Program-made: the position numbers and the translations under genes
The notes under the pieces: generated by a model
Databases searched by the model: none
Seen by the model: the letters and a program-made list of their open reading frames with translations, nothing else
What the model was told of the DNA's origin: nothing
Part shown: positions 8,715 to 26,671 of the stretch, piece by piece
Layout: every line of letters starts with the position of its first letter
Position numbering within the stretch: the first letter of the stretch is position 1
From: a virus
Direction: 5' to 3' (one strand)
IMG/VR virus record: IMGVR_UViG_3300037961_001990
Coordinates: 4,101 to 45,096 of that record
DNA length: 40,996 bases

Positions 8715-9574
8715 TGTTAAAAATAATATCAGCCGACGAAAGAATGGCAGAAGAAAGAGGTCATAAAATCGTTATTGGTGGACCAAGTGGTGTCGGTAAG
8801 ACTAGCTTGGTTCGCACAATGGACTCAGAAAAAACTTTGTTTATGGATTTAGAAGCAGGAGATGCCGCAATACAAGGGTGGCCTATAGATGTTATCCGCC
8901 CTAGAACATGGCAAGAATGTCGTGATTTTGCTTGTTATATTGGTGGTAGCAATCCTGCTTTAAATGATGATCAAGTCTATTCTAAAGCACATTATGAGCA
9001 ACTCTGCAAAGAAAAGGGCAACCCGCAAGAATGGTTGGCAAAATATGACAGTATATTTATTGATAGTATTACTGTAGCAGGTAGGTTGTGTTTTCAATGG
9101 TGTCAAAGCCAACCCGATTGCAAAACTTCTAACGGCAGGCTCGATACTCGAGCCGCCTACGGTATGCAGGGTCGTGAAATGATGGCTTGGCTTACACATT
9201 TGCAACATATTAGAGATAAGAATGTTGTATTTGTTGGTATACTAGATAGTCGCACAGACGACTACGGTAGACCAATACATGATTTACAAATAGAAGGCTC
9301 TAAGACGGGTCGTGAACTACCAGGGATTGTGGACGAAGTTATTACTATGGCAATAATGCCAGGTGATGAAAACACTCCACCATACCGTGCGTTTGTATGT
9401 CATACTCTAAACGAATGGAATTATCCTGCAAAGGATAGATCGGGTTGTTTAGATTTATTAGAACCACCTCACTTAGGTAATCTGTTAAAAAAGATGTCAG
9501 GTAACACTAAGGCAGAGGATCGTTTGTTAACTTTTAGTTTATTAAATAAAAATAATGGAGAGGTAAATGCTTAA
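8714..9574 (+). CDS. Sak4-like RecA-type ATPase (AAA_24), recombination
   Basis: 286 aa. Walker A GPSGVGKT at residues 23-30 and Walker B SIFIDS at 113-118 define a RecA-like NTPase of the AAA_24 family used by many phages as Sak4-type single-strand annealing or recombination protein. It is shorter than RecA and lacks its C-terminal domain. The following gene is an ssDNA-binding candidate, the usual partner of Sak4. It overlaps that gene by 8 bases. It likely acts on ssDNA in phage recombination and replication. Confidence 0.85.
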   Translation: MLKIISADERMAEERGHKIVIGGPSGVGKTSLVRTMDSEKTLFMDLEAGDAAIQGWPIDVIRPRTWQECRDFACYIGGSNPALNDDQVYSKAHYEQLCKEKGNPQEWLAKYDSIFIDSITVAGRLCFQWCQSQPDCKTSNGRLDTRAAYGMQGREMMAWLTHLQHIRDKNVVFVGILDSRTDDYGRPIHDLQIEGSKTGRELPGIVDEVITMAIMPGDENTPPYRAFVCHTLNEWNYPAKDRSGCLDLLEPPHLGNLLKKMSGNTKAEDRLLTFSLLNKNNGEVNA

Positions 9575-10154
9575 TTTTAATGACGTAGAACCCGATAAGG
9601 GATTAGAACCACTAGAACTTATACCTGCGAATACTGTTGCAAGGGTAACTCTAAAGATTGAAGAGGGTCAAATTGAGATACCCGAGTTTGGTCAAGGTAA
9701 TTTTTTTCGTGCAAGTGCAACAACAAAAGCAAAATGGTTGCCTATTGAGTTTACTATTACAAGCGGTAAACACAAAGGACGTAAGTTATGGCACAAATTG
9801 TTTGTTGATGGCGATAAGATTGCCGAGGGTGGTATGCCACAAGCTAAACAGATTGGTTTGCGTACCATGCGTTCTATTTTAGAAAGTGCTCGTCAAATCC
9901 GTACTGATGATATGTCGCCTGAAGCAAATGCTAAAAGACAAATAAATTCTATCGAAGATTTAAACGGTATGAATTTATGTATTAGGATTGGTATAGAAAA
10001 AGGCACTAATGGTTACGGTGATAAGAACTCATTGATTGCACCTTTAACACCTGGTCAAACAGATTATATACTTTCTGATTTACCTACTGAGCCACAAGTT
10101 CAGCAAGTGCAACAACCGACTTCTAATCCTACACCCGATTGGGCTAAACAGTAA
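9567..10154 (+). CDS. ssDNA-binding protein candidate (DUF669-like)
   Basis: 195 aa, preceded by GGAGAGG. The N-terminal 150 residues have the layout of DUF669-type phage proteins: beta-rich with LIPANTVARVTLKIEEG, then KWLPIEFTITSGKHKGRKLW, where the HKGRKLW turn is typical. The C-terminal 40 residues are Gln/Pro/Thr-rich and end DWAKQ, like the flexible tail of SSB proteins. It follows the Sak4-like gene with overlap. A role in coating ssDNA during replication or annealing is inferred from family resemblance and context. Confidence 0.7.
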   Translation: MLNFNDVEPDKGLEPLELIPANTVARVTLKIEEGQIEIPEFGQGNFFRASATTKAKWLPIEFTITSGKHKGRKLWHKLFVDGDKIAEGGMPQAKQIGLRTMRSILESARQIRTDDMSPEANAKRQINSIEDLNGMNLCIRIGIEKGTNGYGDKNSLIAPLTPGQTDYILSDLPTEPQVQQVQQPTSNPTPDWAKQ

Positions 10155-10327
10155 TTTAGAGATTGGGTTGGAACCATCCTTTTCAGAAGTTTTATTAGCG
10201 AACTTCACACAAGATAGATGTCATCATTATTATTACCCCAATAGGTAGTGATAGAAGGCCTGGAGATATAATTATGATGGGTAATGTGGGTTCTGTAATT
10301 TATATAGCAAAATCTATTAAGCTAATA

Positions 10328-10460
10328 GTCCAATATCTGCGGACACCGTATGGGTGGAAGGAATTCGAAAGAACCTTCGGTATTCGACTTAAAATGGAAA
10401 GTCCGATATTGTCTACACCGTATGGGTGGAGGTATTTGAAAGAACCCTCGGTATCTGACT
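10328..10460 (+). repeat. tandem 73-nt RNA repeat with covarying helices
   Basis: Copy 1 starts at 10328 and copy 2 at 10401, both with GTCC. Each copy folds into a three-way junction. P1 pairs 10332-10337 with 10379-10384 (copy 2: 10405-10410 with 10450-10455). P2 is CACC-GTATG-GGTG (10344-10356 and 10416-10428). P3 pairs 10357-10361 with 10374-10378 (copy 2: 10429-10432 with 10446-10449), closing a loop with a conserved GAAAGAA. An A-T pair in P1 of copy 1 is G-C in copy 2, and an A-T in P3 is G-C in copy 2. Confidence 0.65.
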
Positions 10461-10566
10461 TTAAACTACCTGACAAGAGTTATACATCTAATGTTGAATA
10501 GGGTGTTAGCTCTTGTTAGGATTTATTTAAGAATTTCTAGCGTCAACACCTTGTAGTGCGTTAGGA

Positions 10567-10602
10567 CTATGTTTGGGGAGTACATAGGACGCAAAACTCC
10601 CC
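10567..10602 (+). promoter_or_regulatory. H-type pseudoknot upstream of the SleB start
   Basis: Stem 1 pairs CTATGT (10567-10572) with ACATAG (10582-10587). Its loop carries GGGGAGT (10575-10581), which pairs with ACTCCCC (10596-10602) beyond the stem. This leaves loops of 2, 0 and 8 nt, the classical compact H-type geometry. The ribosome-binding site CGGGAGG starts 8 nt later (10611-10617), so folding could control translation of the hydrolase. Confidence 0.6.
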
Positions 10603-10622
10603 GCCACAATCGGGAGGATTAA

Positions 10623-11045
10623 ATGATTGAATCAATTATGTGTCTAGCCATGGCGATTTACTTTGAAGCAAGAGGTGAGCCTATGGTGGGGCAAGTGGCG
10701 GTTGCTCAAGTTGTCGTAAATAGAGTCGGGGATTATAGATATCCTGATAATGTTTGTGATGTCGTTAAGCAAGGCTATTACTATTCTTGGAATCAAAACA
10801 TTCCTATCAGAGATAAATGTCAATTTAGCTTTTGGTGCGACGGTAAACCCGAAACTATAAATGATATGATGGCATGGGGTTTTGCTATTGATATAGCTGA
10901 AGCCACAATGAAAGGCTATCTGTATGATACAACAAACGGTGCTACTCATTATCATGCGTATTATGTACAACCAAGTTGGTCATATCAGTTTACAAGGACT
11001 GTTCGTATTAACGACCATATATTTTATAGAAGAGAGATGGAATGA
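10623..11045 (+). CDS. cell wall hydrolase, SleB/CwlJ family
   Basis: 140 aa with a strong GGGAGG site. The SleB (Hydrolase_2) signature is complete: EARGE (15-19) with the probable catalytic Glu, GQVAVAQVVVNRV (23-35), CQFSFWCDG (66-74), GATHYHA (106-112), PSW (117-119) and HIFYR (132-136). These enzymes act as lytic transglycosylases or amidases on peptidoglycan. There is no signal peptide. It is the second wall-degrading enzyme in the window but lies in the replication block rather than near the lysozyme, behind a structured leader. It overlaps the helicase start by 4 bases. Confidence 0.9.
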   Translation: MIESIMCLAMAIYFEARGEPMVGQVAVAQVVVNRVGDYRYPDNVCDVVKQGYYYSWNQNIPIRDKCQFSFWCDGKPETINDMMAWGFAIDIAEATMKGYLYDTTNGATHYHAYYVQPSWSYQFTRTVRINDHIFYRREME

Positions 11046-13063
11046 TACTTAGACCATATCAAGATGTGGCAGTAAACTCTGCTATTAAATCATTAAACAA
11101 ACATAAAAATACAATAGTCGTTGCACCAACGGGTGCAGGTAAAACTATTATGCTATCGTCTTTGATAGGGAAGATGCACAAGGAGAACAATAAAGTATTG
11201 GTGCTTCAACACCGTGATGAACTTGTTAATCAAAATATGGACAAGTTTAAAAAGATAAATCCTAATATATCAACGAGTATTTTAAATGCTGATGAGAAGG
11301 ATTGGTCAGGTGATGTGGTGTTTGCCATGGTACAAACGCTATCAAGGCCGAACAATTTATCGAGTATGCAGCGGGTTAATCTAATTATTATTGATGAGAG
11401 CCATCATACTATAGCAAATTCTTGGTTGAATATAATAAAAGAATCAAAAGAAATTAATCCAAATGTTAGGATAGCAGGGTTTACGGCTACTCCTAATAGG
11501 GGTGATGGCAAGGGTTTAAAAGAGGTTTTTTCTAATTGTTCACACCAAATAGAAATAGAAACACTCATTCGTGAAGGTTTTCTTGTATCACCCAAACCAT
11601 TTGTGATTGATGTCGGAGTGCAAAAAGAACTTAGTCAAGTTAGAAAAACTATTGATGAATTTAACATGGACGAGGTAGCTCGTATCATGAACAAAAGACC
11701 TATTAATGAAGAGGTTGTTAATAAATGGCATGAACAAGCATCAGACCGTAAAACAGTTGTTTTCTGTTCTACAAAGAATCATGCTAAGGATTTATGTGAT
11801 GAGTTTGTAAAACAAGGTGTTCGGGCAGAGGTTCTTACAGGAGACACAAAGAAAGATGTTCGGGTTAATATGTTGCAAAGTTTATCAAATGGTGATTTGC
11901 AAGTTGTTATTAATGTAGCAGTTTTGACTGAGGGTTTCGACTCACCACCTGTATCTTGTATTATTTTAACAAGACCTTGTTCGTATAAATCTACAATGGT
12001 GCAAATGATTGGGCGTGGATTACGAACCATTGATCCAAATGAATACCCGAACATAATTAAAAAAGACTGTATAATTTTAGATTTTGGAACATCAATATTA
12101 ACTCATGGTAAGTTAGATGAGGAAGTTAACTTAGATGACGTTGCATCAGAGGAAAATGGTCAAGCACCACAAAAGCAATGCCCTGAGTGTAATTCGATAG
12201 TTCCTTTAGGTGTTCGTGAATGTCCTATATGTGGTCATGACTTTGCTAAACAAGAAGAAATGAAACTCAAAAAATTTAATATGACAGAAGTTGAGTTAAT
12301 AAATAAATCTCAATTTCGTTGGATTAGAATATTTGAAAGTGATAAATGTTTAATGGCATCAGGATTTAATGGTTTTGCCATGGTTATTGATTTAGGTGAT
12401 AATTTTTTGGGTCTTACAAAGCTCAGAAATGGGGATTTAAGGGCAGTGAGTATAGGTAATAAGAGAGAAGCTATTGCATCTGCTGACGACTTTCTAAGAA
12501 AGATTGAGAGTAGTAATAAAGCCAAGAAGAATAAACAGTGGTTAAATGAACCAGTAAGTGAAAAACAAAGAAGAATATTAATTAACAAAGGTTATACAAT
12601 ATCTCCTTTTGATTTCTCTTGGACAAAATATAAAGCGTCTTGTCTATTAGATTATTTGTTCAATAAAAAAAAGGTTGATCATCTTATTTATAAGAAGAAA
12701 AGAGAAATTAAAATTAATCAAAAATCTTTAAAATCAAACCAAGATAGGCTTGCTCAATTAAATAGACAGTATTCTCCAAATTATAATTCTGATAATTCAT
12801 ATTTTCCTACAAGAAAACAAATTAAAGAACAACAAAACTCTTTAGTTAAAATTAATCAAAAAGAAAGAGAAGATCGTTTAAAGGCTTTGAGTTATGGACT
12901 TAAACAAATAGATTCCAAAACAAATGATGAGAGAAAAAAGTTGAGTTTAGGTGCAGAAAAGTTAAGTTTGTCTAATATTAAACAGTTTCCTGGCACTAGA
13001 TCGGTGCAGATTGAAACAAGAAGGCAAAGATTATTTAGAACAACAAAAAATGAGAATGAATAA
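11042..13063 (+). CDS. DEAD/DEAH-box superfamily 2 helicase
   Basis: 673 aa. SF2 motifs are in order: APTGAGKT (28-35, motif I), DESHH (118-122, motif II), FTATP (147-151, motif III), TEGFDSP (about 296-302, motif V) and QMIGRGLR (321-328, motif VI). A Cys4 zinc knuckle (C380, C383, C394, C397) follows the helicase core. The C-terminal 270 residues are charged, Lys/Asn/Gln-rich and without a recognised domain. The protein should unwind or remodel DNA using ATP in phage replication or recombination. It is coupled to SleB by ATGA and ends one base before the next ATG. Confidence 0.92.
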   Translation: MILRPYQDVAVNSAIKSLNKHKNTIVVAPTGAGKTIMLSSLIGKMHKENNKVLVLQHRDELVNQNMDKFKKINPNISTSILNADEKDWSGDVVFAMVQTLSRPNNLSSMQRVNLIIIDESHHTIANSWLNIIKESKEINPNVRIAGFTATPNRGDGKGLKEVFSNCSHQIEIETLIREGFLVSPKPFVIDVGVQKELSQVRKTIDEFNMDEVARIMNKRPINEEVVNKWHEQASDRKTVVFCSTKNHAKDLCDEFVKQGVRAEVLTGDTKKDVRVNMLQSLSNGDLQVVINVAVLTEGFDSPPVSCIILTRPCSYKSTMVQMIGRGLRTIDPNEYPNIIKKDCIILDFGTSILTHGKLDEEVNLDDVASEENGQAPQKQCPECNSIVPLGVRECPICGHDFAKQEEMKLKKFNMTEVELINKSQFRWIRIFESDKCLMASGFNGFAMVIDLGDNFLGLTKLRNGDLRAVSIGNKREAIASADDFLRKIESSNKAKKNKQWLNEPVSEKQRRILINKGYTISPFDFSWTKYKASCLLDYLFNKKKVDHLIYKKKREIKINQKSLKSNQDRLAQLNRQYSPNYNSDNSYFPTRKQIKEQQNSLVKINQKEREDRLKALSYGLKQIDSKTNDERKKLSLGAEKLSLSNIKQFPGTRSVQIETRRQRLFRTTKNENE

Positions 13064-26362: not shown

Positions 26363-26671
26363 ATGGCAATATCGAGATCACAAATCCCTCAACAAATCAG
26401 TAAAGGAGCAAATAAGATGATGAAGAAAAAGGGTTATAAAATGGGTGGTAAAGTAAAATCCAAAGGCATGAAAAAAGGTGGCAAAGTCAAAGCCAAAGGC
26501 ATGAAGATGGGTGGTAAGGTTTCACCACGCAAAATGATGGCTAAAGGTATGAAAATGGGCGGTGTCATGAAAAAGAAGGGCATGAAAAAAGGTGGTGCCG
26601 TTGGTGGTATGACATTAGCTAAGATTAGATCGGCTGCTAAGAGCAAAGGGTATAAACTAGTTAAAAACTAA
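26363..26671 (+). CDS. Lys/Met/Gly repeat protein
   Basis: 102 aa. Residues about 23-82 are repeats of KGMKxGGKVK (for instance KGMKKGGKVK and KGMKMGGKVS), very basic, with an ordered tail TLAKIRSAAKSKGYKLVKN. A DNA-binding or packaging-related role is plausible from charge. It starts directly after the previous stop. The Gly-Gly-hydrophobic motif recurs in at least seven other proteins of the window. Confidence 0.65.
   Translation: MAISRSQIPQQISKGANKMMKKKGYKMGGKVKSKGMKKGGKVKAKGMKMGGKVSPRKMMAKGMKMGGVMKKKGMKKGGAVGGMTLAKIRSAAKSKGYKLVKN

Follow-up and report, generated by a model that had tools for sequence, protein, structure and literature searches.

The window analysed here, a stretch of 40,996 nucleotides of viral DNA, belongs to a phage whose gene content includes DUF1064, AAA_24, a hydrolase, a DEAD/ResIII helicase, and a primase/helicase. 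Wolbachia phage WO and Acidithiobacillus phage AcaML1 encode the proteins closest to two from its replication region (about 30–43% identity). The gap of interest lies upstream of the cell wall hydrolase gene and downstream of a gene whose product we tentatively label SSB-like on the basis of gene position. This upstream gene has no Pfam match, and its relatives in phages WO and AcaML1 are listed as hypothetical. An initial sequence-only reading had called the gap the only gene-free stretch in the replication block, which is about right, except that it holds two distinct things, an insert (10155–10532) and a leader RNA (10533–10622), whose parts are listed in Table 1. Elsewhere in the window, positions 26420–26595 hold short, coding-like tandem repeats with many Lys, Gly, and Met codons (three 62-nt matches), and the 3′ part of the helicase gene (12714–13060) shows a length difference of about 280 bp between the window and the contigs L004, L010, and L012.

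Table 1. Features in and around the gap, in window coordinates.
Feature	Position	Strand	Details
Upstream gene, presumably SSB-like	9567..10154	+	
Accessory insert, 378 bp	10155..10532	+	from stop codon of SSB-like gene to conserved leader; in relatives, 9-bp linker GTTTCTAAG
Hairpin D2	10186..10206	+	stem differs between lineages by register shift; loop TTTATTAGC conserved
Hairpin D3	10228..10253	+	ATTATTACC / GGTAGTGAT
75-codon open frame overlapping junctions	10274..10501	+	frame-shifted in L010
Three-way junction, copy 1	10327..10389	+	P1 AGTC.AATAT / GTATT.GACT, P2 CACC-GTATG-GGTG, P3 GAAGG..TTC-GAAA-GAA CCTTC
Linker joining both junctions, 9 nt	10390..10399	+	invariant between lineages (alignment)
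Three-way junction, copy 2	10400..10460	+	fold matches copy 1
Long terminal hairpin	10469..10520	+	followed by ATTTATTT; folding z −6.55
Separate conserved leader RNA, three-way junction + pseudoknot	10540..10602	+	TTGGGGAGT ... AAAACTCCCC
Downstream gene, cell wall hydrolase	10623..11045	+	PF07486 (Pfam)

Presence and absence of the insert

Searching with the two neighbouring genes retrieved 104 viral loci, and in the closest of these the gap between the two genes measures either 472–477 bp or 103–106 bp. The block is carried by 3 contigs (the window, L009, and L010), of which L009 is a second, nearly identical (99.98%) contig of the window phage, so that the independent occupied lineages number two. 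In L004, L005, L006, L008, and L027 a 9-bp linker aligns in place of the 378-bp block, and with L011 and L012, which also lack it, 7 close relatives are empty in total. Occupied and empty states are both found within the window clade, and both again within the L010 clade. Because the linker stands in these relatives despite flanking genes that are 98–99% identical at the nucleotide level within a clade (L004 versus the window; L010 versus L012), the alignments identify the block as an accessory insert rather than a fixed leader, a presence/absence module between two otherwise syntenic genes. Between the two clades the flanking genes are 81–87% identical, the block 89%, and the leader 100%, and the block is probably an old yet optional module.

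Pattern scans for the junctions in viral contigs (four patterns) and in a genome collection recovered solely the two phage lineages, the other matches reading as coding or chance; as these were exact patterns run on viral and genome collections, two carrier lineages is a lower bound. A 5′-end pattern added 4 contigs, all unrelated, and a blastn search of phage and plasmid records returned nothing. A covariance model built from the repeats (R1) found no further copy in about 0.8 Mb of related loci, where the remaining matches scored about 15 bits. In L116 and L118, a section of a GIY-YIG-like ORF (ERTFGIRL) resembled the repeat DNA, a similarity that was dropped as pattern-selected. Rfam, searched at gathering scores and at a permissive E-value and covering riboswitches, introns, ribozymes, HEARO, GOLLD, and ROOL, returned no family for the insert; the best permissive match, to unrelated families, had E = 1 and 14.5 bits, where the gathering score is 51. 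No tRNA or tmRNA genes were detected. By eye, a tRNA-like sequence with an apparent long internal insertion lies at 2822–2960 of L111.

Fold and conservation of the insert

The insert is made up of two 5′ hairpins, two tandem copies of a three-way junction, and a strong 3′ hairpin. The two repeats do share one junction fold, as had been proposed: a repeat finder returned a 36-nt core at 10359 and 10430 that is 83% identical and spaced by 71 nt (72 for the 5′ halves), and with each copy folded alone the junction is the minimum-energy structure, at −19.0 kcal/mol for copy 1 and −16.0 kcal/mol for copy 2. The folding z-scores of the junctions are modest (−1.8 and −0.8, respectively). The units measure 64 nt (10327–10390) and 62 nt (10400–10461) and score 90.8 and 81.7 bits with model R1. 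In each of them P1 consists of 4 pairs, a pyrimidine mismatch, and then 5–6 pairs, P2 pairs CACC with GGTG around a G-Y-A-U-R loop, and P3 has 4–5 pairs, a bulge, and TTC-GAAA-GAA with its GNRA cap. Both lineages share bases specific to copy 1 (AAGGAA..TTC) and to copy 2 (AGGTA..CTG), which places the duplication before the split of the two phage lineages.

Compensatory change between the copies had been claimed in two helices. The A-T to G-C change in P1 is real (10332–10384 versus 10405–10455), but the one in P3 is more accurately a T to C change combined with the loss of 1 nt, which moves the helix into another register. This leaves the repeat by itself with a single pair changed on both sides, a result that shuffling shows to be non-significant (256/500), and with two lineages that are 89% identical the covariation of the repeat is thin, although the four repeat copies (two per phage, in two diverged lineages) keep 97.6% of pair cells versus 30–46% for slid partners. 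The whole element fares better. On the structure predicted from the window only, substitutions in L010 touch 14 pairs, of which 10 stay standard and 4 break, compared with 11.2 broken pairs expected under random placement (simulated p = 0.0044; p = 0.0016 for the kept fraction) in a neutral model that ignores context and selection on sequence. Pairing is thus kept above chance across this divergence by the whole element, whereas the repeat alone does not reach significance. Several changes between the window and L010 yield G-U pairs, which are legal only on a + strand RNA, and point to an RNA of that strand. The stretch 10155–10622 as a whole folds better than 100 shuffles (z −3.2), a signal driven by the 3′ hairpin, with the z-score given in Table 1, and by the 5′ hairpins (z −3.3). 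The 3′ hairpin appears to be terminator-like or to protect a 3′ end; consensus scans gave no promoter or terminator standing out.

The 75-codon frame that overlaps the junctions would, if conserved as protein, have told against an RNA. Neither lineage interrupts it, and start, stop, and C-terminus agree between the two, as for a gene encoding a small repeat protein. In L010, however, repeat 1 has lost 1 nt ahead of P2 and repeat 2 has gained 1 nt, which places about 25–30 middle codons in another frame, the second halves of the two repeats are mutually out of frame (at their spacing of 71), and there is no Pfam match. With a frame shift across repeat 1, and with the DNA conserved but the peptide not, we rejected this ORF as a gene and regard a coding role as highly improbable. 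On the comparison of the two lineages, what is conserved in the block is RNA structure on the + strand, not a protein, and the proposal of a new structured RNA outside known families is borne out by the lack of an Rfam match and by the structure kept between lineages.

A pseudoknot leader downstream of the insert

The leader combines a predicted three-way junction with a pseudoknot. P1 pairs GCGTC with GACGC, the P2 region is variable, and P3 pairs CTATGT with ACATAG; its loop, TT-GGGGAGT, pairs through GGGGAGT (10575–10581) with ACTCCCC (10596–10602), located after P1 and AAA. ACTCCCC might alternatively pair with the SD GGGAGG, in competition with GGGGAGT. A pattern scan found the leader in 22 viral contigs, and a structural descriptor applied to all fetched loci recovered 12 distinct sequences, with 0 in shuffled controls. 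Of the 12, 8 contain the sequence of the search pattern, which is missing from L014, L017, L025, and L082, the last a looser match. All three helices show compensatory changes on both sides of a pair: GCGTC/GACGC to GCCTC/GAGGC in P1, T-A to C-G in P3, and GGGGAGT/ACTCCCC to GGGAAGT/ACTTCCC in the pseudoknot. The covariation of the leader is stronger than that of the tandem repeat. The architecture is kept, with different stems, in three contigs with unrelated neighbour genes (L120, L128, and L134). The leader lies directly 5′ of the helicase gene in L014-type phages and before the hydrolase or a different gene in the others, and it is retained in lineages without the insert. The operon's conserved leader is the 10540–10602 RNA, not the tandem junctions.

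Like the insert, the leader has no Rfam match, and it represents a second structured RNA without an Rfam family, occurring in several unrelated phage contexts. Viral exonuclease-resistant RNAs are likewise built on a three-way junction, with the loop of one arm paired to nucleotides that follow the closing stem on its 3′ side. The leader resembles them in predicted architecture, with no sequence relation seen, and differs in its DNA phage context. A simpler form of the leader follows a capsid-like gene in L119. In L007 (2140–3092), L123, L127, and L130 the gene that follows the leader is a different one (MDDILFANQVLAGL...), which has been inserted or swapped in ahead of the hydrolase/helicase.

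Possible roles of the insert

The dispensability of the block, its structural conservation, and the separate leader make an optional RNA that acts in trans the most likely reading, and to an optional (“moron”-type) noncoding RNA gene of a tailed marine phage we assign roughly half of the probability. Such an RNA would be made as part of the replication operon transcript or start at a promoter close by, and the 3′ hairpin would terminate it or protect its 3′ end. The duplicated junction, with its GAAA-capped P3 and the G-Y-A-U-R loop on P2, would form a putative binding module, acting in trans, on which an RNA or two copies of a protein from host or phage could dock; a protein-binding RNA is possible. 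Expression of the downstream genes, served by a pseudoknot leader of their own, would not depend on the insert, and only this dispensability suggests action in trans. A more specific and less probable proposal is a class of optional phage noncoding RNAs not described before, in which the duplicated junction serves as a trans decoy or scaffold for a host factor, e.g., against a defence system, the cassette being exchanged between phage lineages.

Most of the remaining probability is shared among cis control, a mobile-element relic, and a counter-defence decoy. The sequence-only reading had suggested aptamer-like domains in a leader, riboswitch-like or protein-binding. Under cis control, the tandem junctions would sense a ligand or, as in the put RNA of HK022, act on RNA polymerase, controlling the hydrolase-helicase operon. 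The tandem domain does lie upstream of this operon on the same strand, and the strong hairpin with a U-rich tail that follows could be a controlled terminator. A riboswitch or cis leader would be kept upstream of its gene among close relatives, whereas here 7 close relatives without the block keep the same downstream leader and gene; in addition, a separate structured leader stands between block and gene, about 160 nt separate the start codon from the end of the nearest junction, and no competing pairing of the junctions with the leader was seen. Cis control is therefore unlikely, and the riboswitch-like interpretation is not supported.

Somewhat less likely again is a non-autonomous mobile element or ribozyme relic (group I/II intron-like, IS200/IS605-like, or HEARO-like), the fold of which would reflect ancestry. 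Presence or absence at one precise site, the lack of an ORF, and a length of about 370 bp would suit such an origin, but the group I, group II, and HEARO families of Rfam are unmatched. Insertion sequences occupy several sites and have terminal repeats or a target duplication; the repeat finder gave no terminal inverted repeats, the ends share TTTA/ATTTA similarity only, with no clean target duplication, and no second copy was found within the three carrier contigs or at other sites of the viral collection (four patterns). The divergence of the element (89% identity) also parallels that of the host lineages (81–87%). A decoy that mimics a host RNA such as a type III antitoxin, in the manner of pseudo-ToxI, seems improbable, even though the insert, itself an optional locus, is built from structured RNA units that recur, and phage RNA mimicry has precedent (PMC3475682). 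Its units are 62–64-nt junctions rather than 36-nt pseudoknots, and one exact pattern run on the genome collection found no cognate host RNA, the three matches looking like coding sequence or chance.

Compared with known systems, the optional RNA gene that we favour shares with HK022 put the presence of two tandem RNA structures in a phage. The put structures lie in a phage transcript, early in operons, and act in cis, whereas the insert is optional, mid-operon, and made of three-way junctions. Phage PhiTE carries repeated structured RNA units in its genome as pseudo-ToxI (PMC3475682), and the insert is alike in this respect; those 36-nt pseudoknot repeats resemble a host antitoxin, and the 62–64-nt junctions have no known host counterpart. 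ROOL and GOLLD, like the insert, are structured, noncoding, phage-carried, and without an assigned function, and ROOL was non-essential in one strain (PMC12286853). They are longer, however (659 to over 800 nt, compared with 378 nt), and often lie near tRNA islands, whereas the insert has no tRNAs and no Rfam match; ROOL also contains multiple pseudoknots, unlike the insert. A role is known for few of the phage noncoding RNAs that adopt complex folds, and the natural occupied and empty pairs of nearly identical phages described here make a clean test of the effect of the insert possible.
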